Shown: positions 4,016-22,500 of the stretch, piece by piece
How positions within the stretch are numbered: the stretch's first letter is position 1
Layout: every line of letters begins with the position of its first letter
From: Chrysochromulina tobinii
Taxonomy: Eukaryota > Haptophyta > Prymnesiales > Chrysochromulinaceae
Assembly (NCBI GenBank): GCA_001275005.1
Contig: JWZX01002417.1
Coordinates: 1 to 22,928, forward strand
Length of the DNA: 22,928 bases
Direction of reading: 5' to 3'
Position numbers and translations under genes: made by a program
The notes under the pieces: generated by a model
The model's database searches: none
What the model was told of the DNA's origin: nothing
What the model saw: the letters and a program-made list of their open reading frames with translations, nothing else

Positions 4016-4978
4016 TCATACAACTCCCCGCGGTCTCCTTCGCACGGCCGCGTACGGCACGGTGCCGCAAAAGTAGTACAGCGGGTACGCTTGGCCTACG
4101 AGCTGCGTGGGCTCACTCATTACGAAGGCGAGGCCCGACTCCGGCACCCGGTGTGAAAAGATCCAGCCGGTGCTGGCCGCGAGCTCGGCGGGCATCTCGC
4201 CGTCGAAGCGCGCGCCCGCGCCGTGCCCCGACTCCGCCAACGCCACCTCCGTACCTGGCGCAAGCACCACCTCGTCGCCCTCCTGCACCGGGCCGTCGGC
4301 GGTTGACGACCTATTCGGTGCGCCCGGCAAAGCGCCTGCCGCACCCTCGCCGCTGCGCACCTTGACGAGCTGGTGCACGAGGTCGGCTGCCTTCATGAGC
4401 ATCGAGTCGGCGAGGTACTCGGGAGACACGCCCTTCCCCACTTCGCCCTGCCCGCAAAACTCAAGCTCCACCTCAAACTGTGTCTCCGCCCGTGACGCTG
4501 ATTCATTCGTCGGGCCTTGCTTCACCCTGGTGAGCTCGAACTTGAAGAGGTTCTTGTGCACGAACGAGTAGCGCTGCTTGTGCCGATACAGGTGCACGGG
4601 CGAAGGGTCGGCGGAGGACTCTCTTTCCGAGGCCACTGCAAACTTGACTGGCACGCCCGATGGCGTCGTCCACGGCACGTCATGGCCCTTGACCTTGCGC
4701 ATGTACTGTGCCGGCTTGGGCAATGGCTGGCCGTTTGGGCCCATCTCGATCGTCTCGCGCACGCCCGTCGCGTGCATCCTGTCGAGGGTCACACTCGGCT
4801 TCGGTACGTTGGACCAGCCGCGGTTGCTCTGCAAGCTCGAGAGCAGCTGTTCAAATCCAGCCTCACCCACCTCCTGCACGCGGAACTCAATCTCCATCTC
4901 TGGCTTGGCGCCATATTGCTTGAACCAAGAGATGAGCGCGTCACGAGCATCCGGTGGGAACTGCTTGGTGGACGCCAT
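4016..4978 (-). CDS. mRNA capping RNA 5'-triphosphatase, Cet1/TTM type
   Basis: A 320-residue single-exon protein starting at the ATG at 4978 (MASTKQFPPDAR). The frame stays open to 5221, but the extra 81 residues look non-conserved. EMEIEFRV at residues 27-34 has the alternating glutamates of the first metal-binding strand of triphosphate tunnel metalloenzymes. KQRYSF (near 135-140) and FELTRVK (147-153) carry the basic substrate-binding strands. FEVELEF (168-174) supplies the second glutamate triad. This order matches the fungal/protist Cet1 family, which removes the gamma phosphate of nascent RNA as the first step of cap synthesis, with Mg or Mn. It would act in the nucleus with a guanylyltransferase, which is not in this window. 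About 90 C-terminal residues after position 210 form an extra tail of unknown role. Confidence 0.72.
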   Translation of the reverse strand: MASTKQFPPDARDALISWFKQYGAKPEMEIEFRVQEVGEAGFEQLLSSLQSNRGWSNVPKPSVTLDRMHATGVRETIEMGPNGQPLPKPAQYMRKVKGHDVPWTTPSGVPVKFAVASERESSADPSPVHLYRHKQRYSFVHKNLFKFELTRVKQGPTNESASRAETQFEVELEFCGQGEVGKGVSPEYLADSMLMKAADLVHQLVKVRSGEGAAGALPGAPNRSSTADGPVQEGDEVVLAPGTEVALAESGHGAGARFDGEMPAELAASTGWIFSHRVPESGLAFVMSEPTQLVGQAYPLYYFCGTVPYAAVRRRPRGVV

Positions 4979-5487: not shown

Positions 5488-8236
5488 GTTGGCACCGTCG
5501 CGAGCGCCTGCTCTGGCTTGAGAGCAAAATGACCGCCGGCGGCCGCCACACTGTAGCCGGCATTCACACCAGGGGATTCACACCACCCGGCATTCACACC
5601 GGCCGCCACGCTGTAGCCGGCGAGCAGGCCGAGGCATTCACACCCAAGGAACTGGACCGCGCGGTGCTCAAGGTGCGCCTTCATCGCCGCCAGCACTGCC
5701 GCTTGCACGCCGGCCTCGAGCAGCAACGGTTGCTTCCTGTGGGGAAGTGGATGGGGCGTCGTGGTGAGCACTTGCATGCACGAGGGGGAGAGCGGCATCG
5801 GTCGCCGTGCATGCCGTACCTGTGCAGGCAGCGTAGCCGCACTTGGGCGAAGCACTCGAGGGCGAGGTGCGGGTGCTCCTCCTGCACGCCAAAGATCTCG
5901 AGGCAGCGCGCCAGGAGGGGCGCACTGCCCCCGCGTACCAGCTCACCCCAAGCTTCGTCGTCCCACTTGCTCAGCGTGAGCTGCTCGCCATCTTTGCCCA
6001 CCACGGTCGCATCGGGCGCGATGCCGAGCGCGTCCAGCAATTCCCCACAGTCCGGCCGGTAAAAGTGCTCCGGCTGGCCAGGCAGCCGGACGGCGAGCGG
6101 CTGGCCTGGGAGTGCGTTGGACGAAGTAAACTTGGGCGACATTGCGCGCCCGTGCCACGTTGCATCGCTCCACGCGATGATCGCCTGCGAGCCGTAGCCA
6201 GGCGCCGTGACGGGCAGCGCAGGGCGATCGGCCTTGCCCTTCCCCGGGTTCGTCATCTCAAGGAGGGTACTTTCTTCGTCGCCCGCGGCGCCCGTGGCTT
6301 TATGGCTACCCGTGCCGGCCTCAAACCGACCCTCATGGAGCCACGTGGCCTCGTGCATGTAGGCGCGGTCGGCGCTCGTCGTGCTCGCGCCGGCCAGGTA
6401 GGCGCTCGACACGGCGCTCGGCTGCTTATTGGGGCTCGCGGACCGATGGACTCGGGTCGCTCCGCGGGTCTCCACACGGACAGCGCGGTCAGTCGGGGCG
6501 TTGTCGTCGCCTTCGTCGCCCTCATTCCCACCCTCACTCCCGCCCCCGGGGACCACGATCGTCCTCGACGCGCCCGCAAGAACCGGTCGCACCAGCAGCG
6601 GTCGCTCCTGCAAGGTGTGCACGTTCACGCCAGCGCCCGGCCCACCACCACCGGACGGCTCGGTGCGCCGCGTGTCACGTCGCGAGGAGGGAGGCTGGAG
6701 CTCACGCCACATACCCGCCAACGAGTCCAACCAGCCCGGCTTGGAAACGATCCCAGATGCGCCCACTACAGCGCCCCCCGCAGCATCCCCGCTGGTCGGC
6801 GTCGTGCCGGGCGCCACCTCGTTGATGCCCGCGCCGGCGGCCTCCATGGCTGCCGGAGCAGTGCCGACGCGGCGCAGTGCCGTTGCGGCGGAGGCGCGCC
6901 CCTCAGCGGAGCCTTTGCGGCTTGCCTTCCCGACGAGCAACCGTTGCTGCTGCGCCGCCTTCAACCCCTCAACAGCCCCACCAGCCGCCGAGCTCCCAGC
7001 GCTCCCAGCGCCTATGGGCAGCGCCGTCGTGGGCAGCTTGCCTCCCGGGGGCAGCCGCGCCGCCGCACTCTCTGCCGCCACCCTCTGCCGAGCAGCGGCG
7101 AGCATGCGTAGCCGATCGTCCGCGAGGGCCAGGAAACGGTCATGGTCTGCGGGATCCGGTAAGGCAGGAGGTGTAGCACCCATACCGCCGGCGCCGTAGT
7201 GGGCATCCATACCGCCGGCGCCGCCAACGCCCGCATCCCCGCTCATGCGGGCGAGCTGCTGCTGCTGCTGCTGCTCGCACACATAGCTCGCGTACGCCAC
7301 CTTGGCCCGTACCGACTGCTCGACACGGCGCGTGCGCCGTTCAATCTCTTCGCGAGCTACGAGTACATCGCGCTGCGCGGCGATCCGCTGGGCCGCTCGG
7401 CGCGCCTTGATCCGCTTGGCACGCTCCTCCTCCTGCTCCCGCCGCTCGGCCTCGCTCGACACACGCGGCGGGGAGACGCCCGAGGGCGGGTGCGCCTTAT
7501 CCACACGGCTCGTCGGCTTGCGCGCCGTCGTTGGCGTGGGCTTCTCCGACCGTTTCGGGCGCGTCGGCTCCACACGCACAGCGCGGTCCGTCGGGGCGTT
7601 GTCTTCACCCTCGTCGCTCTCGTTCACATCCCCGCCGTCGGCGACCACGATGGGCCTCGATGCCTTCAGGCTGCGCTGTTGGCTCGCCAATGCGAGTAGC
7701 GGGTGCGGCGCGCCCGGCAGGGAGGGCATCTCAGCCGTCGGGGAGCCTATCATATCGTCATCGTCCTGGAACTGGGCCTGCTTCTTGGAGGAGCTGCCCT
7801 CGTCCTCGCAGATTATGGTGGTGCGTTTGGGCTTCTCGCGATCGATTATTTGGCGCTCCGCATCTCGCGTGCTCGCGTGCACTGGCCGCGGCGGAGGTCG
7901 GCGCTCGCCGACTGGCCTCGAGGTCGGCGGCCGTGCCGGCGATGGCGTCACCGTGCGGCGTGCCGTCGTCGGCTTGCGCGCCGTCGTTGGCTTTCGTGCC
8001 GACTTTCTCGCCGATCGGAGCCGGCCGCCCCGCGCACTCTCCTTGGCTGCGCGTGCCTCGCGCAACAGGGCCCGCCGCTCCGGCTCATCCTCCACGGAAT
8101 CCTCCTCGTCCATCATTCGCAGATTTTTGGAGGCGCCCTCATCTCCACATACGATGGTAGTGCGCTTCTTGTCCGGGACGCCTGCGAGCGCGTCCACCTC
8201 CGCCGCAAGCAAGATGCTCGCGGCCGAGTCGTCCAT
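5457..8236 (-). CDS. Large disordered protein with acidic repeats and C-terminal armadillo-like repeat
   Basis: Two exons: 8236-5820 and 5736-5457, with a phase-2 join giving about 898 residues. The N-terminal 260 residues are disordered and basic, with KRTTIVCGDEG (residue 24 on) and KRTTIICEDEG (near 140). Two related longer copies follow, each ending DNAPTDRAVRVE. Residues about 265-335 (EAERREQEEERAKRIKARRA and onward) form a charged helix or coiled coil ending in a six-glutamine run. The middle is glycine/alanine rich and low complexity. After the splice the frame reads LRCLHRKQPLLLEAGVQAAV then LAAMKAHLEHRAVQFLGCEC, which looks like an armadillo repeat (an aGvqaaVlaAmkaH-like helix pair). 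The last exon also has a 60-base in-frame duplication (5541-5561 versus 5601-5621). The function is unknown; a scaffold or cytoskeletal role is only a guess. The start codon begins the first recognisable repeat block. Confidence 0.65.
5737..5819 (-). other. Intron of the armadillo-like gene (83 nt)
   Basis: The donor is CTGCACAG|GTACGG and the acceptor CCCCACAG|GAAGC, phase 2. Splicing here removes the frame break and restores the armadillo-like sequence RKQPLLLEAGVQ. The block at 5753-5780 (plus strand CGTGGTGAGCACTTGCATGC) is nearly identical to blocks in two introns of the gene at 12400-14603. Confidence 0.75.
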
Positions 8237-8487
8237 GAAGCGCTCGAGGACCTTTTTCGGATTTGGATTGAAAATTGTCGAAAGAAAACAGCGCTCAAAG
8301 AATCCCCCTCACCGCCGCCCCCCCCGCCCCCGCCTAGTACATGTACACAGACCGGCACTTTGGTTGATAGGGCGCTTTTCGTTTTATGTGTCTGCTGATA
8401 CTTGACTTGACTTGACTTGACTTGTCTTGACTTGTCTGTGGTCCTGGGCGGCAAACCGTCAAACACACGGCGCTTCAAGTAGTAAGC
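8237..8487. promoter_or_regulatory. Shared divergent promoter region
   Basis: A 251-base gap lies between two divergently transcribed genes, the acidic-repeat gene (-) and the CW-PARP gene (+), so it probably holds both promoters. It contains a C-rich run at about 8317-8335 and a CTTGA pentamer array at 8401-8437, with one or two variant units. No TATA box stands out. Confidence 0.5.
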
Positions 8488-12399: not shown

Positions 12400-14603
12400 T
12401 TACCCCTTGGTGAGCTTCGCGATGGCGGCCTCGAGGTCCCAGCCCACCTTAACGAGGGTGGACTGCGCCTGCCGCTCGCTCCACCCTCGTTCCACGAGCT
12501 GCAGCACGAGCGAGTCGCGCTTGCGCTCCAGCCGCAATTGGGCGCGTAGCTCGGCCACCGTCCCCTCGCTAGGCAGCGTGCGCTCCTTGCACTCGTCGAC
12601 CAGCTGCGCCTTGTTCATGCGCGAGAGGGCCGGGCGCGCTGGCGCCGTCGCGGGCACGCCCTCGCCAACCGCCGCACCGGTCGTGGCGAGCGTCGTGGCG
12701 AGCAGCCCGGTGCCCCGCAGCCGCGCCTCGATCTCGGCCGTGAGCTCCGCTGCCTCGGTGCTCAAGCTGCTGCCGCCGCCGCCGCTGCTGCCTGGAGCAG
12801 CCTGAGCGCTCTCCTGGGCGCTCACGGCGACGCCTCCCTTGGCCGCCTTGCCTCCTTTGGCCGCCTTCGAGCTGGCCTTCGGCTCGAGGTCGGTGGCGAC
12901 CCCCGCCGTGCTCGCCGCGTTCTTGAGGTCTTCGAGCTGCGCCTGCAGCGCCGCAACGGACGCCTCCGAGCGCGCTAATTCGGTCGAGAGCTGCGCCGCC
13001 TTCGCCTCGGCCGCCTCCTCCGCCTGCTTCGCCTGCACCTCAAGCTCCGCGAGCGCCGCCTGCTCGCGACGGCGCTGCTCGGCCGCGAGCTTCTGCTGCT
13101 CCGAGAGCGACGCGACTGTCTGCTCGCGAGCGGGGAGGGGGTGGTGGGGCGCCGTGGTGAGCGCTTGCATGCAAGGCAGGTCCTCAGAGGCAATTGACGA
13201 ACCTGTTCGAGTCGCTCCTTGGCAGCCCCGAGCTCCGCCGCCGCCGCCTCGCGCCGCATCAGCTCCGTCTCGAGCTGCACCTGCGAGAGGATGAGGGAGG
13301 CCATCAGAGAGGCCATCAGAGGGCCATCAGGGAGGCACGATCGGATCCGTCTCGAGTTTCGTCAGGTTCGAGTTTCGTCAGGTTCGAGTTTCGTCAGGTT
13401 CGTCACCGCGCGCCGCCGCTGCTCGTCGTCGGTCGCCTCGGCCGCCTGCACAGCTTGCCGTTGGGTCTCGAGCAGCTGCGCCGCCGCGCGCTCGGCAGCC
13501 TGCTCCGCGGCCGCCAGCTTCGCGCCGTTGTCATCGAGGCTGGCTTGAGCTCCCGCGAGCTCCGACGCATACACGTCCGCGCGCGCCTTGAGCTCGGTGT
13601 TTGTGCGCTCGAGCTCGGACAGCTTCGTCTTCTCGGAGCTCACCTGCCGGCGCAGCGAGGCCACCGCAATCAGAGTGCAATCAGAGTGCAATCAGAGTGC
13701 AATCAGAGTGCAATCATAGTGCTATCAGAGTGCAATCAGAGTGCAATCACTCGCGCATGCAAGAGCTCACCTGCCGGCGCAGAGAGACCACCGCATCGTC
13801 CGCCGCCTCGAGCTCCCCTTCGAGATCGTCCACGTACCTGTGGGGAGGGTGGAGCGCCGTGGTGATCACTTGCATGCGCGCGCTCCGAGGGCACCCAGGG
13901 GCCCTTCGAGATCGTCCGCGTACCGAGCGAGCGCGCGCGCCGCCGCCGCAAGCTCGCGCAGCTTGGCGTACGAGAACTCGACGACGAGCGCGGCGAGCGC
14001 GTCGCGCGAGGCGAAGATCACCTCGCCGGCCTCGTTGGTGCGGTACGCGCGCCCCTCCTGCGGCGCCAAGAACGAGCAAAACTCCTTTTGGAGCTCCAGG
14101 CTCCCTTGCGTGGGCGCGAGCAGCGCCGAAGCTTGCTGGTCCACCTGCGCAAGCGAACCCGTCGGGCCGGCGAGTCCGAGCTCAGGCGGCTTGCGCGCGA
14201 GGCTGAGCGGCGCGGGCGGCGGCGAAGCCGCAGAGCCGCCCGCCGCAGCCGCCTCACCATCCTCGGCCGGAAGCCACGCGTTCGCCTTGCCGGCGACGCT
14301 GGCTGCGTTCGGCCGAATCTCCGGGAGGGGCTGGCCTGCGCGCTTCTGGAGCTGCCAGCCCGAATTGACCCACTGGTCCGCCGCCTGGCTGGCCACCTTG
14401 GTCGCGCCCTCCGCTGCCTGCAGCAGCGAGCCGACGAAGACCTCGAGGCTTCGGACGGCGGGTGGCGGACCCCCGGGCGGCGGCGTCTGGCTGAGCGTGA
14501 TGGTGGCGGCGCGGCAGTCGTGGCGCAGAAGGGCACGGATGGGTGCGAGACTGTATGCTGATGATAGCGGCAGCAGCGCCAGCACGATGAGGACGACCCT
14601 CAT
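12400..14603 (-). CDS. Plastid-targeted coiled-coil protein with SAP and UBA-like C-terminus
   Basis: Five exons: 14603-13924, 13837-13771, 13643-13407, 13280-13203 and 13119-12400, giving about 593 residues with every junction in phase. MRVVLIVLALLPLSSAYS (1-18) is a signal peptide. The following arginine- and serine-containing stretch resembles a transit peptide, so bipartite targeting to a secondary plastid is inferred. The central part (roughly 205-440) is a long alpha-helical coiled coil (for example SLRRQ then VSSEKTKLSELERTNTELKA). LSRMNKAQLVDECKERTLPS (from about 519) is a SAP-like helix-extension-helix motif, associated with DNA or RNA binding. The last 39 residues (LVERGWSERQAQSTLVKVGW near 560-580) look UBA-like. 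A role in plastid nucleoid or RNA organisation is a guess. The frame is open upstream of the chosen ATG, but that part overlaps the divergent gene's promoter and start and lacks targeting logic. Confidence 0.7.
13120..13202 (-). other. Intron 4 of the plastid-targeted gene (83 nt)
   Basis: The donor is GAACAG|GTTCGT and the acceptor GCGAGCAG|ACAGTC, phase 0, joining LEQ to TVASLSEQQ and keeping the coiled-coil register plausible. It contains the shared block CGTGGTGAGCGCTTGCATGC (plus strand, within 13146-13173), also found in intron 1 of this gene and in the intron at 5737-5819. Confidence 0.7.
13281..13406 (-). other. Intron 3 of the plastid-targeted gene (126 nt) with 16-bp tandem repeat
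   Basis: The donor is GCGCG|GTGACG and the acceptor CTCTCGCAG|GTGCAG, phase 0, joining EQRRRA to VQLETELM. Near its donor it carries about three copies of a 16-base unit (plus strand GAGTTTCGTCAGGTTC, 13355-13405). Before the acceptor it has a CTGATGGCC-type repeat. CTCGAGACGGA occurs both inside the intron and at the start of the next exon. Confidence 0.7.
13644..13770 (-). other. Intron 2 of the plastid-targeted gene (127 nt) with duplicated splice borders
   Basis: Donor CCGGCAG|GTGAGC and acceptor CCGGCAG|GTGAGC are identical, because the 32 bases at 13763-13794 recur at 13636-13667 with only two mismatches. Between them lie about seven copies of the 11-mer TGATTGCACTC (coding strand). 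Splicing joins VSLRRQ to VSSEKTK in phase 0. Confidence 0.85.
13838..13923 (-). other. Intron 1 of the plastid-targeted gene (86 nt) with duplicated border
   Basis: The first 22 bases of the intron (13902-13923) match the first 22 bases of the next exon (13816-13837) with one mismatch, both starting GTACG. Removal gives RALARYVDDLEGELEAADD in frame (phase 2). The interior contains the TTGCATGC block shared with introns 5737-5819 and 13120-13202. Confidence 0.82.
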
Positions 14604-14759
14604 TTTTGTCCAGGGCGCCACCGCGTCGCTCGCGCGGGAGTTCTTCTTGAGTCGGCCCTGTTTAACGAATTCAAGTGCCTCGTAGTGAGACCCGACTTTT
14701 GATTCCTCGTTCATGGAGTCTTGAGCGATGTCAGCTGATGAGGCGTGCAATCCGTTCCG
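14604..14759. promoter_or_regulatory. Short divergent promoter region
   Basis: Only 156 bases separate the ATG of the plastid-targeted gene (minus strand, 14603) from the first ATG of the cyclic-nucleotide-binding gene (plus strand, 14760). The two promoters and 5' UTRs must overlap or share elements. I see no clear TATA box. Confidence 0.5.
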
Positions 14760-17700
14760 ATGCGTCCAGGGTCCAGTCCAATGAACAGTCCGGGCGCGGC
14801 CACGCGACGTGCTCATTCGGCCCGCAGTTATTTTCGTGCCCCGCAGCCGGCCTCGAGTGCCCCGTCTCGCGCCGAGGTGAAGGCGCTGCATAAGCAGCGC
14901 CTGTGGACGGCGCTACAAGGCAATATGGCAGGCACGGCGTCCGATCGCCTGCGCGCGCACGCGTCCGACTTTCGAGACATCGAGGCACCGCTGCTCATCA
15001 AGCGCGCCATCGCAGCTCCCATCGCAGCGCTGCAGGCCCGGCAGCGCAAGAGCAGCGCAGTCCCCATGCGCGTCTTCATGGCGCTGCAGCGCAACGGCCT
15101 GGGTCGATCTACCTTTGACGTGGAGGACCTTGCGGTCTTCGCGTGTGCAGTGCACCCGCTCAAGCTCTTTTCGAGCCAGATGCGCCGCTCGCTCTGCCAG
15201 CAGGCGCAGCTCGTCACATACCAGCCGGGCCAAGTCCTCTGTGCCCAAGGCGAGCCGACGCGCGTGTTCCACGTGGTGCTCTCGGGCGCGGTCGAAGCGT
15301 ACCGACCAAAGGCGCTCGCGACGGCGCTAGGCGAGAGCGCGAGCGTGGCCACCGGCGAGGCACCGCAGCAGGCACCGCAGCAGGCACCGCAGCAGGCACC
15401 GCAGCAGGCACCGCAGCAGGCACAGCAGCAGCAGGGTGGCGTCTTCGAAGTGCTCGATAAGGACGGCAACGGGTTCATCGAAGCGAGCGAGTGGCGCCAA
15501 GCGACGGCCACGCTCGGGGTGCTCGCGGCAGAGAGCTCAACAGTGGACGCGATCTTCGACGTGCTCGATAAGGACGGCTCGGGCCAGATTGAAGACGACG
15601 AGCTGCATGCCGGCCTGCTCCACTCTTCGGACCTTCTCCCGTCACTGCCCGGCATGGAGCGTGTGGGGATCTTCCGAGAGGTGAGGATCTGATTGCCTCT
15701 GATTGCATGCGTGGGGATCTGATTGCATGCGTGGGATCTGATTGCATGCGTGGGGATCTGCCGAGAGCTGGAGGGCTTGCCTTTTGATTGCGTGTGGTTG
15801 CATGCTGATTGCTTCCCTCATCAGGTCGAGAGCTTCGGCCTCGCCGCGCTCACGAACGACATTGATTGCATGCTGATTGCTTCCCTCATCAGGTCGAGAG
15901 CTTCGGCCTCGCCGCGCTCACGAACGACATCACCTCGAGCGCCTGGCCGACGGCGATGCGCGCGCTTGAGCTCACCACGTGCATGTGCATCGACGCCGAC
16001 TGCTACAAGGAGGCGCACAGGCGAGAGGATGAGCGGCAGGAGGCGACTCGCATCAAGTGGACAAAGGCAGGGGCACGTGGACGAGGAGAGCGGGTAGGAC
16101 TCGTCAACAGTCCGTGATCGCGTGTGACTGCCTCTGACTGCCGCTGATAGACTCGGATGGCCTCCCTCATCAGGTGGGAGTGCAAGGAGATGGGAACATC
16201 ATCAGCTCCGGCCGAGCGCTCGGTACGGCGCTCAACGCCTCGACGCTCGACGCCGCCATGCTTCGCAAGCTGAGTCAGCAGCCGCCACAAGGCAGCAGCC
16301 GGCTCAGCGCGATGCTCACGCAGGGCGGCGAAAGCCTCATGGTACGCATCAAGGCGGCGCTCAGTACGGCGCCGCTCTTTCGCACGCCGTCGCAGGTGCG
16401 TGTCCGACTGCCCTTCTCCCCTTGCCCTTTGCAGAAGCCACCTGCATATCTGGACGTGTGCTCAAGATGGCGCCAACCCGATGCCGCCCACGCGCCCGAT
16501 CGCAGCTCAAACTGATCACGAGCGTGATGCTCGCAACGCACTTCTTCTCGTCGCTCGAGCCGGCGGATCTCGATGCGATCTCGCGCAGATTGATGCTCGA
16601 GAAGGCGAACCCAAACAAGGTGCTCATGCAGGCGGGCGACGACGCCGATACGTTCTTCATCGTGCTCTCTGGGCAGCTCCAAGTGAGATCACACCCGATT
16701 TGGGCAGATCGAACCCGAGTGCCCGCGATTACCTAATTTGGGCAGCTCCACCTGATTTGGGCAGCGTCAAGTGAGATCACACCCGCGGGCTCGCGAGGAC
16801 GACGCCGTCGTGGGTGCCGATCGGCCGCTTGTCGACATGATTGCCTCTGATTGAGCTCTGATTGAGCTCTGAGGAGATCGGCCATTGTGAGTGCCTCGTG
16901 ATTCCCTCGTGATAGGAGTGCCTCGTGCTGGCGCAGGTGAGCGTGGATGGCGCCGTCTTGGGCACCAAGCAGATGGGCGACACTCTCGGCGAGATGGCTC
17001 TGGTCTCGTCCCAAAAACGAGCCGCCGACGTGCTCGCAATCTCGCTGTGCGAGCTCGCCGTGCTCCGACGGGACGACTACCTCACCGTCGTGTCCGAGAA
17101 GCAAAATGAGACCCTCGAGCTCAAGCGGGAGCTCATCCGAGCCAATCCCTTGTTTGGATGCCTCACGCGCGCGCAGCGCGACGAGCTGTCCAAATTAGGC
17201 AAGCTGCAGCGGTTTGCATGCGGCGAGACCATCATTCGGCAGGCCGACGGCTCGGATGAGCTCTTCCTCATCGCATGCGGCTCCGTCCACGTCTTTCGGC
17301 GTGTCCAAATTAGGCCAGGGCAGTCCCCTTGCGCCCAAAACGGCGCCAACGACCCGTCGAACGCCCAACACGGCGCTGGGACGACCCTGGCCACTGCCTC
17401 CGGCCGTCGTGCCTTTTACGTCGGCGCCCGTGCTCCCGAGGCAGCGGACACGCCCTCGACGGCGCCCAGCGTCGAGCTGCTTGTGAACGTGCTCCATAAA
17501 GGTCAGCTCTTTGGAGAGATTGGCGTGCTGACGGGCGCGAAACGGTCCGCGAGCGTCGTGGCGGCGCTGCCGTCCGAGCTCTTTGTGATCTCGCGCATCG
17601 AGCTCTACCGCTTCCTCTTCGACTGCCCTCTGCTCAAGCAGGTGCCCCTCTGATGACGCTCTGATGACGTTCTGATGACGCTCCGATGACTTGTATGGCG

Positions 17701-18353
17701 ACTCTGATGCCCCCCGGTAGGTACTCCTCGATGCGTCGGCCTCGCACTACCCATCCGATGACGAATTACTTGCCACGTGGCGCTCCGATGACGCGTGGCA
17801 CACGTACCGACGGGCGCTCAACGGCTGCGTCAGTGCCAACGGCTCTCGTGACGGGCCCACGACGGCGCGCGACAAGCCTCCGTCAGGCGGACCCTGGCGT
17901 ACCGACATCTGGACGGCGTCGGGGCGGGGCGGCGTGGCAGCGCTGCCGAGCTACAGCGAGCCGCGCGTTTCGTCAGACCGAGGGTGCGCCGCTCTGACGA
18001 AACGCGGAGGCGATCTCGATGCTCTGACGAAACGCGGAGGCGCTCTCGATGCTCTGACGAAACGCGGAGGCGCGCTCGATGCGGACTCGCGCCTTTATGA
18101 ATGGGCGTCCGAGCACCTCGACAGGCACGTCATCGAACCCATCAAGGATGGCTTGCTCGTCTCTTACCCGAAGCCCCAGCCACCCGCCCATCTCGGCGCA
18201 CCAACGCCCGCCCCGTCCGTCCGCGAGCGCGCCGCACCCAACCGACTGTGGCGAAAAGCGGCGGGCGGCGACTTCGCGAGAGAGAGAGTGAGTGCGAATG
18301 CGATTGCGCTCGACCATGCGCTCCGAACTCTCGAGCTCGTTCAGGACACCTGA
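14760..18353 (+). CDS. Three-domain cyclic-nucleotide-binding protein with EF hands inserted in the first domain
   Basis: Six exons: 14760-15680, 15893-16093, 16174-16395, 16506-16682, 16937-17641 and 17721-18353. All joins are phase 0, giving about 952 residues. CNBD1 begins near residue 122 (LKLFSSQMRR, PGQVLCAQGEPTRVFHVVLSG). It is then interrupted by a repeat of APQQ and two EF hands (loops DKDGNGFIEASE at about 233-244 and DKDGSGQIEDDE at 270-281). Exon 2 (VESFGLAALTNDI) looks like its second half. CNBD2 spans exons 4-5, with LSGQLQ and the phosphate-binding cassette GDTLGEMALVSSQKRAADVL. CNBD3 follows, with FGEIGVLTGAKRSASV. The last exon has a three-copy ALTKRGG(D/A)LD repeat and no catalytic domain. 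It resembles a stand-alone regulatory subunit of a cyclic-nucleotide kinase, which would respond to cAMP/cGMP and Ca2+. A second ATG lies at 14781. Confidence 0.78.
15360..15431 (+). repeat. 12-bp tandem repeat coding for APQQ
   Basis: Five copies of GCACCGCAGCAG and a sixth variant copy (GCACAGCAGCAG) encode an (Ala-Pro-Gln-Gln)n linker between the first half of CNBD1 and the EF hands. Copy number is probably variable. Confidence 0.92.
15681..15892 (+). other. Intron 1 of the cyclic-nucleotide-binding gene (212 nt) with 68-bp duplication at its acceptor
   Basis: The donor is CGAGAG|GTGAGG and the acceptor CCTCATCAG|GTCGAG, phase 0. The acceptor with about 40 bases of exon is duplicated 68 bases upstream (AGGTCGAG at 15823 and 15891). 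Using the upstream copy would shift the frame. The exon end (GTGGGGATCTTCCGAGAG) has a near copy at about 15750. The interior has GATTGCATGCGTGGG repeats. Confidence 0.8.
16094..16173 (+). other. Intron 2 of the cyclic-nucleotide-binding gene (80 nt)
   Basis: The donor is GAGCGG|GTAGGA and the acceptor CCCTCATCAG|GTGGGA, phase 0, joining GRGER to VGVQGDGN. The interior has GACTGCCTCTGACTGCC-like repeats and the shared GATGGCCTCCCTCATCAG tail. Intron start and next exon start are only weakly alike. Confidence 0.75.
16396..16505 (+). other. Intron 3 of the cyclic-nucleotide-binding gene (110 nt)
   Basis: The donor is GTCGCAG|GTGCGT and the acceptor GATCGCAG|CTCAAA, phase 0, joining FRTPSQ to LKLITSVMLATHFF, the first helix of CNBD2. 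An earlier acceptor at 16434 would put a stop codon in frame, so the later one is chosen. It lacks the TGATG repeats. Confidence 0.65.
16683..16936 (+). other. Intron 4 of the cyclic-nucleotide-binding gene (254 nt) with duplicated donor region
   Basis: The donor is CTCCAA|GTGAGA and the acceptor GGCGCAG|GTGAGC, phase 0, splitting CNBD2 between LSGQLQ and VSVDGAVLG. The exon end plus intron start at 16671-16697 recurs at 16759-16785 with two mismatches, giving a second potential donor. Short repeats of GATTTGGGCAG and GATTGAGCTCT fill the rest. Confidence 0.78.
17642..17720 (+). other. Intron 5 of the cyclic-nucleotide-binding gene (79 nt)
   Basis: The donor is AAGCAG|GTGCCC and the acceptor CCCGGTAG|GTACTC, phase 0. 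Unspliced, the frame stops at once in CTCTGATGA. The interior is three to four copies of CTCTGATGACG. Splicing opens a 210-codon last exon in the same frame. Confidence 0.75.
17991..18080 (+). repeat. 30-bp tandem repeat, three copies, in the last exon
   Basis: GCTCTGACGAAACGCGGAGG followed by CGATCTCGAT (with variants) is present three times and codes for ALTKRGG(D/A)LD. The sequence just upstream (GCGTTTCGTCAGA) is partly the reverse complement of the repeat, so a hairpin could form. Confidence 0.9.
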
Positions 18354-18619
18354 CACTCTCATTCACACCGAAAGCCGTGCCACACTCGGCAATTGAATTT
18401 AAAACGGAATTTTCAGAAAAGACGTTCAATCATGTGGTAGGAGGGTTGGCTGGCGCCGGGTGCGCAACAAGGCAAACCCGGCAAAGGCTTAGGTTAAAAG
18501 GCGTTAAATTAGTTCATTGTCCCATGATCCTCGAGCGCGTGGCCCGCCGTCCACGCAGCAGGCAGCGGGAAGCTGGCACAGACAGATGCGGACGGCGCAC
18601 TCATATCTGCTCGTGGCAC
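18354..18619. other. Convergent 3' region
   Basis: A 266-base gap between the 3' ends of the cyclic-nucleotide-binding gene (+) and the lipocalin gene (-). A locally AT-richer stretch at 18389-18420 may serve 3' end formation. No gene is seen. Confidence 0.4.
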
Positions 18620-19186
18620 TCAGGCGCTCCACTCCTGCGGCACGGGCTTGACCTTGCTCATGTCGTACCCGAGCTCCTCGGGCACTGCGAGCATCTGGCG
18701 CAGCCTCTCGGCCGGTGGATTGGACTCACGGGCCATGACCCACAATAGCGAGCGGTCGGGGTAGCCGACCGTCATGCTGCTGTAGTCGTCGGCGCAGTCG
18801 ATGATGATGTAGCGGAGCTTGACGGGCAGCGCCCAGCCCAGCACAATCGGCGAGACGCGCCACTCGGTGCCCGTCGTCACCGCGTCGTAGAACCATCCGC
18901 GCTGTTTCATGACGGTGCGCGGGGCCGTCGGCGAGCCCTTGGCGAAGCTCAACGTCACGAGGAATCGCTTATTGGCCTCATCCCACTCGTACTCCTCCGT
19001 CTCGTTGTAGACCCCCGGGATCTTTTCGATAAAGTTTGGGATCACGTGCGTCACGAACCACTTGCCCATGCACTTCATGGGGTCGATCGTCTTCGTTGAG
19101 GCCTCGAGCGGCGGCAGCGCAGCCCCAGCCTTTGCAGCCCAACGCAGGCTGTGCTTGGGGGTCGCATCGTCTGTGGGCGCAGACAT
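18620..19186 (-). CDS. Lipocalin of the Blc / temperature-induced (apoD-like) type
   Basis: A single exon of 188 residues, close to the usual length of this family. MGKWFVTHVIPNF (40-52) holds the lipocalin G-x-W motif (G41, W43). EEYEWDEANKRFLVTLSFAK (64-83) fits successive barrel strands. DYSSMTVGYPDRSLLWVMAR (134-153) matches the Blc/TIL signature of the last strands. An eight-stranded barrel binding a hydrophobic ligand is expected. In plants and bacteria such proteins protect membranes from oxidative or temperature stress. There is no lipoprotein or classical signal peptide, so a cytosolic or peripheral membrane location is likely. The start at 19186 leaves a 35-residue leader before the barrel. 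It is convergent with the cyclic-nucleotide gene and divergent from the gene at 19563. Confidence 0.85.
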   Translation of the reverse strand: MSAPTDDATPKHSLRWAAKAGAALPPLEASTKTIDPMKCMGKWFVTHVIPNFIEKIPGVYNETEEYEWDEANKRFLVTLSFAKGSPTAPRTVMKQRGWFYDAVTTGTEWRVSPIVLGWALPVKLRYIIIDCADDYSSMTVGYPDRSLLWVMARESNPPAERLRQMLAVPEELGYDMSKVKPVPQEWSA

Positions 19187-19562
19187 GCCGGGGTGGCGCC
19201 CGATGTCCTCCGAAATCTAGCACGGCACTTTCCTGGGAAAATCTCAAACCGAGCACCGACCACCGTCCGCACGGGACGATCGCCACGCATGGCACCCGCA
19301 CCTTGCAAATTCACAATGATCGCTTTGCGGATGAGCATGTGAAGTCTGGGGGTTCACCGCCCATGTCGGCGGGCGCGCTCCCTCCCGAGTTCATATTTGG
19401 GTCTCGCCGATCTTCTCTTATAGGCTGTTTCTCAGCTCTCTGCCTGCATGTGTCTCAGTTGAGGCCTGGCCTGTATTGTATTGTTTTGTCTTCACGGCTG
19501 TCCTGCTTACGTGTTGTGTGTATTAACATGAAAGAAGCTCGAACGTTCTGCGTTCTGCGCGT
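19187..19562. promoter_or_regulatory. Divergent intergenic region
   Basis: A 376-base gap between the lipocalin start (-) and the start of the modular secreted protein (+), expected to contain both promoters. A T-rich stretch is present at about 19465-19530 (GTATTGTATTGTTTTG). No specific element can be assigned. Confidence 0.45.
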
Positions 19563-22500
19563 ATGGCGGCGCTGGATGCGCGGGTGGTGTGCGAGGTCGG
19601 CCGGTTGGTGATCGTGTCGACGATCGTGGCCGCGTGCGTGCATCTGCTCTCAGCGACGAGCGCGAGGCTGAATCTATTTGAATGCTCCTTTCGTGATCGA
19701 ACAGATGATTTCGGTCGCCGCCATTCCGCCACAAAGTGTGCGGCGGCCGCGGCCGGGCCCCTCACGCACTTGCTCGCTAGAGGCAGCTCCGCTGTGTTGC
19801 GCGCTGTCCTCATGGTCAAGCAGCTGTGCTACGACGAGAGCAGCCTCGAGGCGATTTCCTCCTCCCACGCGATGGCGGTGACCATCATGTACCAGTTGGG
19901 GATCGGCTTTGTTGGTGCGGAGCCTTTCGAGGTCTTCACGACGGACCGGCTGGCCAACACCTCGATCTCGTCGCCGCCGAGTCGGGCGTGGACCCCGGGC
20001 GTGGTCACCACAGTTGCCTATGCCGCGTCCACACGGGCGAGATCAGCATTGTCACCACCGATTCGTCCGCGAGTGCTGCCGTAGAGAAAACCTTGAGCAC
20101 ATTCGTCCTCGCAGACGCGGACGCGGCGAGCGCTTTCTTCAATCTTGGGGTGACGACCGAGCCCACCATCGCCGTGGAGACGGTCACTCGACCATCGCGC
20201 GAGTCGGTGCGCAAGTACATCCTCTGATGATGACCTCTGATGATGACCTCTGATGATGACCATTGATGATGACCTCTGATGATGACCTCTGATGACCTCT
20301 GATGATGACCTCTGATGACCTCTGATGATGACCTCTGATTGCCTCCCTCATCAGGTGCGCGAGAACATCCTCTTCGGGCTGCCGTTTCATCAGGGGAGAT
20401 ATTCGAGATGCGTCGCGAGATCGGAACTCGAGGCGGATCTCGCGCAGCACGCCAACTCGGAGTGACCATCGTGCTTGCCACGAATCAGGCATGCTCCTCG
20501 TCACTGATGGCCCCTGATGATGATTGATCGCCATTGATTACATGCTCTCGGAGGTACCATCGTGTTCGCACCTCTACGGCCGCGCCGAGGTGACTGATGA
20601 GACCTGATTGCCTCCCTCACGGCATGCAGGCGCACCTCGTTTGACCGCCCTGAAGTGATTCGCATCCTCCTTCTCGAGTGTATCGGTGTGCTCGTTGGGC
20701 TCGCGCCGTACCGGGCGCTCCGGTCTGAGTGTATGCATGGGGCTTCACCGCAGATGTTGGATGCCCTGGGATGCGCCGACTCTGTGGTCGACGTGGACGC
20801 GAGCGAGCACTTGACCAATCTCGGTCTAAATCTTGCGTCTTCAGACGACGGCACAGTGACGGGCGGGGTGGCGGCGGCGGCGGCGGACACCGAGGCGGTG
20901 GCTGTGGCGGCCGAGGCGGCGGCGGCCTCACGCGAGACAGATGCGGCGGCCTTTAGCGCCGCCTCGGGTGTCCGCACCTTACGCATTTCGGACGCGAGAT
21001 TTGAGGGACGGACGTTGGACAGACGCTTGGTCGAGACGCTCTGTGCCGCTGAGTGCCGTTGAGTGCCTCTGATGGCCTCTGATGACCTCTGATGACCTCT
21101 GATGATCCTGATGGCCTCTGATGGCCTTTGATAACTTGACTCGATTGCCATTGTCAGCGGCCCGTGCATGTTCACGACGCCCGGCTGCACCAACTCGAGC
21201 GCATCCAACTATGACGCCGGCGCCACCGTCAACGCCGGCAGCTGCATTCACTTCGCGCCCGGCTGCCTGGACCCGACGGCTCTCTCGCCACCTCCACCCT
21301 CTTCGCCACCGCCATCGCCTCCGCCGTCGCCACCACCGTCGCCGCCCCCGCCATCACCACCGCCGCCGTCAAAGCCACCGTTGCCGCCTCCGCCATCTCC
21401 GCCGGCACCGTCTCCGACTCCACCAACTCTGCCACCACCATCGCCGCCGCCGTCGCCGCCCCCGCCATTTCCGCCGCCGCCGCCGCCGCCGCGTCTGTCA
21501 CCGCCGCCATCACCACCGCCGTAGCCGCCGCCGACGCCGCCGCCGTCGCCACCCCCACCATCTCCGCCATCGCCGTCGCCATCGCCGTCGCCGTCGCCGT
21601 CGCCGCCGTCGCCGTCGCCGCCGTCGCCGACGCCACCTTCGTCTTCGCCACCTTGACCGCCGCCAAAGCCTCACCGCCACAAAGACCTACACAATGCCGG
21701 CGAAAACCCTGTTACGCCCTCCTGGTGAGCACTGATAAGCACTGATGAGATCTGATGAGCCCTCCTGATGAGCATTGATGAGCACCTATGAGATCTGCTG
21801 AGCACTGATGAGAACTGCTGAGCACTGCTGAGCACTGATGAGTCTGGATGAGCAATGATGTAGTCCTGATGAGCAGTGATGAGCACTGATGAGCGCTCCT
21901 GATGAGCGCTCCTGATGAGCCCTCCTGATGCGCACGGATGGGCACTGATGAACCCTGATGAGCCCTTCTGATCGTGATGAGCACTGTTGAGCACCGATGA
22001 GCACTGATGAGCATTTGATGAGCACTGATTAGCCCTTAACTCGAACTTGATGGCGCTTGATGGCGCTTGATAGGGCTCTTCATTGCCTCTTCTCTCTTCT
22101 GAGTACCGTCCGATTGCGTCTCTCGTATCAGGTATGGCTCGCGCCACCGGCTGTGTTTCGGCTCGAACGGCAACAGCGCCGCCGCCAAATCGGAGAAGCT
22201 GCTCAAGAAAGATGCGTACATGGTCATCATCGACTTGAATGAGGGCAATCACGCAAAGCTCCTGTTCTCGTCGGTGACCAAGTACGAGGAGGCGCGCACG
22301 CACCCCCGTGACGTGCTACAGGTGCGTGCCCCTCCTGATGGCGTCTGATTTCCTCTCTCATCGCCACGAGCACCGCCGCCACCCATGCCTCCGCCGCCAC
22401 CGCCCTCGCCGCCAGCTCCATCGCCGCTGCCGCCATCTCCGCCGCCATCCTCTTCTCCCCCGCGTTCATCGACGCCCTCATCTCCGCCACCCTCGCCGCC

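Follow-up and report, generated by a model that had tools for sequence, protein, structure and literature searches.

The origin of spliceosomal introns is an old open question. The window (the whole 22,928-nt stretch of Chrysochromulina tobinii DNA analysed here, with a GC content of 52-71% per 1 kb) raises it in a concrete form, as several predicted introns begin with a near copy of the start of the next exon. How were these introns made? A sequence-only reading of the window proposed that both of their splice sites came from a duplicated AG/GT (slashes mark splice junctions), that filler repeats then expanded between the two copies, and that the introns are recent. Recomputation showed that the border copies are real, with 21/22, 30/32 and 17/19 matches for three pairs (Table 1). 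The fourth was fairly described as looser, as ungapped comparison of 20462 with 20554 gives 3/17 matches and a 1-nt gap is needed. Scanning the window for GT...AG/GT pairs with at least 17/20 matches yielded three (13923/13837, 20207/20355 and 15825/15893), and 60 dinucleotide-preserving shuffles yielded none. The pair at 15825/15893 was absent from the earlier reading, and is a perfect 68-bp tandem repeat across a CAG/GT junction. The derivation of both splice sites from a duplicated AG/GT holds for the second pair and loosely for the fourth, but not for the first and third, in which the duplication starts at GT and provides the 5' splice site only, the 3' AG belonging to the filler.

Table 1. 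Introns, duplicated borders and element copies in the window (positions are those of the window).
Feature	Position	Strand	Remarks
Family-A intron, 86 nt, GT...CACAG	13838..13923	-	First 22 nt are a near copy of the start of the next exon
Intronic (left) copy of duplicated exon piece, pair 1	13902..13923	-	21/22 to 13816-13837
Exonic (right) copy, pair 1	13816..13837	-	
24-nt mobile core GCATGCAAGTGATCACCACGGCGC	13854..13877	-	545 exact genome copies, two wildcard positions
Intron, 127 nt, both splice sites within 32-nt duplication; filler of TGATTGCACTC repeats	13644..13770	-	
5' copy of 32-nt duplication, AG/GT inside, pair 2	13763..13794	-	30/32 to 13636-13667
3' copy of 32-nt duplication, pair 2	13636..13667	-	
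Family-B intron, 148 nt, CTGATGATGACC arrays, ending in TGATTGCCTCCCTCATCAG	20207..20354	+	
Intronic copy of duplicated exon start, pair 3	20207..20225	+	17/19 to 20355-20373
Exonic copy, pair 3	20355..20373	+	
Family-B acceptor end	20336..20354	+	With one preceding C and following GT, 425 exact genome copies
Looser pair, 20462.. vs 20554.., one-base gap	20462..20570	+	Recomputation and inspection
Perfect 68-bp tandem repeat across family-B-like CAG/GT 3' junction	15798..15930	+	
Probable longer family-A copy, GTTCGTCAATTGCC...core...GAGCAG	13120..13202	-	Core 13149-13172; intron ends by inspection only
Probable older family-A intron, without clear duplication	5737..5819	-	Core 5756-5779; intron ends by inspection only
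Family-B acceptor end, 2 mismatches, before GTGGGA	16155..16173	+	

If left unspliced, the frames of the 86-nt and 127-nt introns contain stops at 13866 and 13747, respectively (ORF list). With both removed, the minus-strand gene has no stop and reads through (...ARYVDDLEGELEAADDAVVSLRRQVSSEKTKL...). Removal of the 148-nt intron from the plus-strand gene gives the product ...VRENILFGLPF..., for which CFTR/ABCC chains give a weak alignment (best E 0.026).

The filler of the 86-nt intron is a dispersed element rather than locally expanded sequence. The genome searched comprises 53.15 Mb in 2,253 contigs, in which window positions 13600-14000 as query gave 61 matches, mostly short. A 24-nt core of this intron, with two wildcard positions, has 545 exact copies genome-wide and 1,991 if up to two mismatches are allowed; the reversed-pattern control gave 0 in each case. 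An adjacent acceptor (CCACAGG within 28 nt; control 0) was identified for 338 of the exact cores. Thus, near-identical introns are dispersed in many copies, as is the case for introners. Of the mechanism first proposed, the border duplication stands, and the locally grown filler does not hold in general. Expansion of filler repeats may still hold for the CTGATGA arrays of family-B introns, but the family-B acceptor end also recurs: a 22-mer of this end plus GT has 425 exact genome copies (control 0).

Downstream of the 24-nt core GCATGCAAGTGCTCACCACGGCGC, form A usually has up to about 19 nt of pyrimidine-rich sequence and then CCCCACAG. At each position of the latter, 44-47 of the 47 selected intronic copies agree, AG being required by the selection. 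The core includes CTCAC, which we take from its consensus to be a putative branch site. Long copies start with AG/GTACGTTGATTGCCACTGATGACC (174 in the genome with up to three mismatches, control 0, compared to 1,991 cores), and a pattern running from TGATTGCCACTGATGACCTGCCTT into GCATGCAAG of the core occurs 169 times in the genome (control 0). As this start and this pattern overlap at some places (e.g., on contig C273), the long copies carry their own donor, GTACGT. Most copies are without the long 5' part, and the donor then comes from the duplicated target. Among 58 tailed copies, 39 have a duplication that ends no more than 8 nt from GCATGC. By inspection, the two ends of the element (GCATGC... 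and ...CACAG) do not form an inverted repeat, and no A-tail was seen at the 3' end of the element.

The core had no matches in prokaryote genomes, and Rfam searches of four loci returned only two snoRNA matches, both below threshold. There was one match to the core in a viral collection (locus L119, positions 4380-4554 of IMGVR_UViG_3300027760_000958). This viral-listed metagenome contig is mostly phage-like by eye and ends in a family-A core, a pyrimidine tract and CAG/GTGAG. It is probably a chimeric contig that includes sequence from a related alga.

For analysis of target duplications we sampled 60 loci at family-A cores and 20 at family-B ends, roughly in listing order and mostly avoiding clusters. 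After near-duplicates and one tandem locus were dropped, 65 of 71 family-A copies were kept. A segment that starts at the donor GT or GC recurs right after the AG of the element in 44 of the 65 (donor-to-acceptor duplication score of at least 15), compared to 4 of 195 shuffled pairings. At a score of at least 20 the counts are 34/65 and 0/195, and 17 of the 65 copies score below 12. Thus, border similarity of the kind first noted in the window exceeds shuffled controls across the sampled family-A copies. For family B, 13/20 copies score at least 12, against 3/100 in the control.

A position profile was made from 47 selected family-A copies (donors 38 GT and 9 GC). Match frequency declines from about 0.9 to about 0.3 over the 40 nt downstream of the junction, whereas at upstream positions -1 to -20 matches are about as frequent as in shuffled pairings. 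The profile is one-sided from the junction, and thus the duplication starts at the donor. Intron length is 63-99 nt in 45 of these 47 copies, and 133 and 141 nt in the other two. Duplication length is variable, at 14-55 nt in 58 tailed copies, as it is for target-primed retroposons. The suggestion of recent origin was borne out in its signs, as 9 of 30 ungapped duplications are 100% identical and 15 of 30 are at least 95% identical. At locus L126, AGGT lies inside the duplication, which supplies both splice sites. The end of the exon equals the end of the element over at least 2 nt in 22/44 copies (a few of them tandem units), compared to about 6% of background GTR sites. This fits microhomology priming, and equally fits selection for good donors (CAG before GT).

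A control with the wrong dinucleotides proved invalid, because a long repeat scores at internal offsets too and other dinucleotides score nearly as often; shuffled pairing and the position profile were used in its place. In an unbiased check, splice dinucleotides were not singled out among dinucleotide combinations, AG with GT ranking 13th in one position class and 8th in the other. Similarly, in a direct-repeat scan of 200 kb of random contig starts, GT/AG was outside the top 12 combinations, and by eye 5 of the 11 GT/AG rows listed look like clean introns. Most of the signal in both scans comes from satellites and coding repeats, and the scans are thus uninformative.

Local tandem units (the element 3' end plus the first exon bases) are present at window positions 15798-15930 and at loci L034, L040 and L045, as if insertions recur at one junction, or the unit itself duplicates. 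We also identified near-identical loci on different contigs (L046/L062, L047/L063 and L032/L118; contigs C101/C235 and C29/C977) that have insertions in common. These are haplotypes or recent segmental copies.

Several features of the genes indicate that the copies are probably spliced and the mRNA preserved. A codon model, for which 76 long ORFs from a random sample served as the training set, placed both flanks in one frame upon excision in 29/38 confident cases (31/45 of all cases), compared to 15/38 (18/45) if unspliced; 9 of the 38 are out of phase after excision. The expectation that excision tends to restore the reading frame was thus upheld. An earlier phase test based on GC3 scores placed the flanks in frame in 28/45 cases spliced and 17/45 unspliced. 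The phase test gave no support for family B in a small sample (7/11 spliced, 6/11 unspliced). Nine spliced products were chosen by eye, and in five of them a Pfam domain over cut-off extends across the junction. These include EMP70 (124 residues) and DSPc (118 residues), both colinear over the junction, as well as Gelsolin, CRAL_TRIO and UPF0020. Among the remaining four, one has AAA_lid_9 only after the junction and three have no domain over cut-off.

The direction of change appears to be insertion, not loss. The joined flanks of the copy in a DSP phosphatase gene (L033) match elsewhere in the genome across the junction, at 85% DNA identity, and the protein encoded by this paralogue (L114) continues through the site with neither the intron nor the second copy. 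For the other 18 of the 19 queried loci, no empty-site match was identified among the 40 of 262 candidates scored.

Some cores are without the pyrimidine tract or CAG. At three loci (L115, L117 and L120), such tail-less cores are in frames that are open across the whole fetched stretch. The units in open frames, each a core between two copies of its target (X), are 42-60 nt long and a multiple of three in 12/12 cases (8 distinct X by count). Other tail-less copies, mostly intronic by our reading, are a multiple of three in 3/14 cases. The open-frame copies end at or near GGCGC, not CCCCACAG. These copies suggest that the element can insert independently of splicing, and that whatever preserves the protein may be retained by selection. 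In-frame insertion is thus a non-intron fate that provides an internal contrast to the intron fate.

The explanation that we consider likely, including its splicing outcomes, is that a tiny non-autonomous 'micro-introner' is copied into coding sequence with a long target duplication. Insertion would duplicate about 15-50 nt of target, converting X to X-element-X. With an X that starts with GT or GC, the spliceosome would remove the left X together with the element and join the exon to the right X, leaving the mRNA unchanged. The new intron would then consist of a duplicated exon piece, which provides the 5' site, and the 3' half of a mobile intron. An X that contains AG/GT could supply both splice sites. 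If there is no acceptor, and X plus the element is a multiple of three, the copy could persist as a peptide insertion.

The element is probably an introner with unusually long target duplications that is spread by retroposition. The most likely mechanism is target-primed reverse transcription of an intron-derived RNA, which would involve a retrotransposon enzyme and widely spaced nicks. We favour this mechanism because of the variable 5' ends, the near-fixed intronic 3' end, the long and variable duplications and the priming-like microhomology. That no A-tail was seen and no partner found counts against it, as do the tail-less copies in open frames, which are not typical of such retroposition. 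Genes for reverse transcriptases are present (26 RVT_1 matches, 22 of them over cut-off), and the element was not connected to any autonomous partner. Of two such genes that we examined, one has RNase H domains and looks gypsy-like, and the other (L130) has RVT_1 only and looks LINE-like by motif and by eye.

The template may be the excised introns themselves, a possibility that we put forward tentatively, with a retrotransposon enzyme priming and a wide nick stagger duplicating the target. In this case, the 3' end of the intron RNA (...CACAG) would prime at genomic sites with a matching CAG, and the 3' half would be copied, with the usual stop just upstream of the branch site. The nick stagger would duplicate 15-50 nt, and the target would supply the missing 5' half of the intron. 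A preference for CAG/GT proto-splice sites would stem from priming, and the same machinery would also write short in-frame insertions into proteins.

The main rival to retroposition, which we regard as doubtful, requires no transposition machinery. Fill-in and end-joining of staggered breaks, with nicks 15-50 nt apart, would trap an abundant short piece of intron-derived RNA or DNA as filler. The variable duplication length, the few unexplained bases at many 5' junctions, the junction microhomology, and the similar duplications around two different fillers (A and B) are all consistent with such capture. There is also a precedent in Daphnia, where 43% of gained introns have short direct repeats on either side, interpreted as a result of staggered-break repair in the portion of the report available to us (PMC3443670). 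However, only a very biased source could yield hundreds of captures of a single 24-mer whose ends hardly vary, and splicing should not require the degree of conservation seen at the A and B ends.

A MITE-like DNA transposon with unusually long target duplications is improbable. At least one DNA-transposon signature is present in most published introner families, ascomycetes apart, in the available part of the survey (PMC9860276), but the ends of the element are not inverted repeats by inspection, and the duplications are variable and 14-55 nt long rather than short and fixed.

Tandem duplication of an AGGT-containing exon piece, with filler repeats expanding afterwards, seems more improbable still, and is contradicted for most family-A copies. 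AGGT does occur within the duplication at the intron at 13644-13770 and at L126, and local tandem units over the 3' splice site exist (15798-15930, L034, L040 and L045). Yet the inserted sequence is common genome-wide (family-A core and family-B end), and the solitary insertion in L033 has a paralogue without it. An intron produced by Rogers-type duplication consists of exon sequence, and similarity extends to either side of its junction. In the present case, a dispersed element lies between the copies, and similarity is one-sided in the 47 selected family-A copies, which argues against this as the general mechanism. Finally, an assembly or library artefact (a linker or chimera) is hardly credible: a 24-mer in hundreds of copies resembles a linker, and the sole viral-collection match is probably a chimeric contig, but copies and duplications are mutated to different degrees, excision yields colinear conserved domains in some genes, and the insertion is common to the near-duplicate contigs of L032/L118.

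Retroposition of an introner may be compared with known systems, here from the portions of the published descriptions available to us. As in introners, near-identical introns are dispersed, probably by insertion, with carried and co-opted splice sites (PMC9860276); introners carry one splice site and co-opt the other from the target duplication (Fig. 2B and 2C of the same source). Target duplications of introners measure 3-9 bp in some of the earlier families, and the worked examples have 4 or 8 bp (PMC9860276). The element described here differs from these in its duplication of 14-55 nt, in showing no terminal inverted repeats by inspection and in the presence of the core in open frames as well. 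Thus, relative to those published descriptions, it acts like an introner, and is set apart by duplication length and by the additional in-frame copies. The survey of Gozashti et al. (2022) filtered out low-complexity families, as described in the part available (PMC9860276), and families such as B could therefore be hidden from it. In open-licence literature on introners and haptophyte intron gain (mostly titles and the starts of abstracts, with a 2023 dinoflagellate introner paper outside the scope), we identified no report of introners with duplications this long.

As in the Rogers model (ATP2A1 and potato RdRp, in the excerpted text of PMC4974935), a duplicated exon piece provides splice sites, and the local tandem units resemble the potato RdRp case. 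In contrast to that model as described there, the two copies are separated here by a dispersed sequence, and GT is usually where the duplication begins. Variable 5' ends, a near-fixed intronic 3' end and long duplication are shared with the non-LTR elements CRE, R4, R8 and R9. Target duplication is a feature of all known CRE and R4 elements, according to the sections available (PMC3636483), and an 'exceptionally long' duplication is named for R9 in a title in the reference list of that paper. Compared to these elements as described in that source, the present one is small (about 24-50 nt), has no A-tail that we could see and has no linked partner. Direct repeats at intron borders are 4-30 bp (mean 11.4, 71-100% similarity) in the available portion of PMC11782384, and 3-5 nt, thus shorter than here, for Amoebophrya introners in that of PMC7789003. 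A shared dispersed core like the one found here does not feature in what is available of either source. The C. tobin genome paper gives on average one intron per gene (PMC4580454, in part). The genome searched also has 58 light-harvesting matches, and for one of these the nearest PDB structures are the haptophyte FCPI chains 9jj8, 8z11 and 9uh3.

Hundreds of recent events thus appear to be preserved in one genome, with element, duplicated target and splice sites still readable in each. The mechanism of intron gain, its age structure and its choice of targets can therefore be tested directly in an alga that grows in culture. Intron-creating elements may also be undercounted by surveys that look for short duplications or discard low-complexity families.

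Other features of the window were also recorded. The gene region at 14742-18353 (plus strand) encodes cyclic-nucleotide-binding and EF-hand domains, and is interrupted by introns of the family-B type. A single-exon protein at 18620-19216 (minus strand) is presumably lipocalin-like. Close to the contig end, at 7-672, there is a 359-bp unit in 1.9 copies. The motif CTGACGAAACGCGGAGG / TTTCGTCAGG is repeated at 17991-18082 and 13352-13402 of the window, and at 8083-8330 of locus L027, in or near genes. It is possibly a third filler family.
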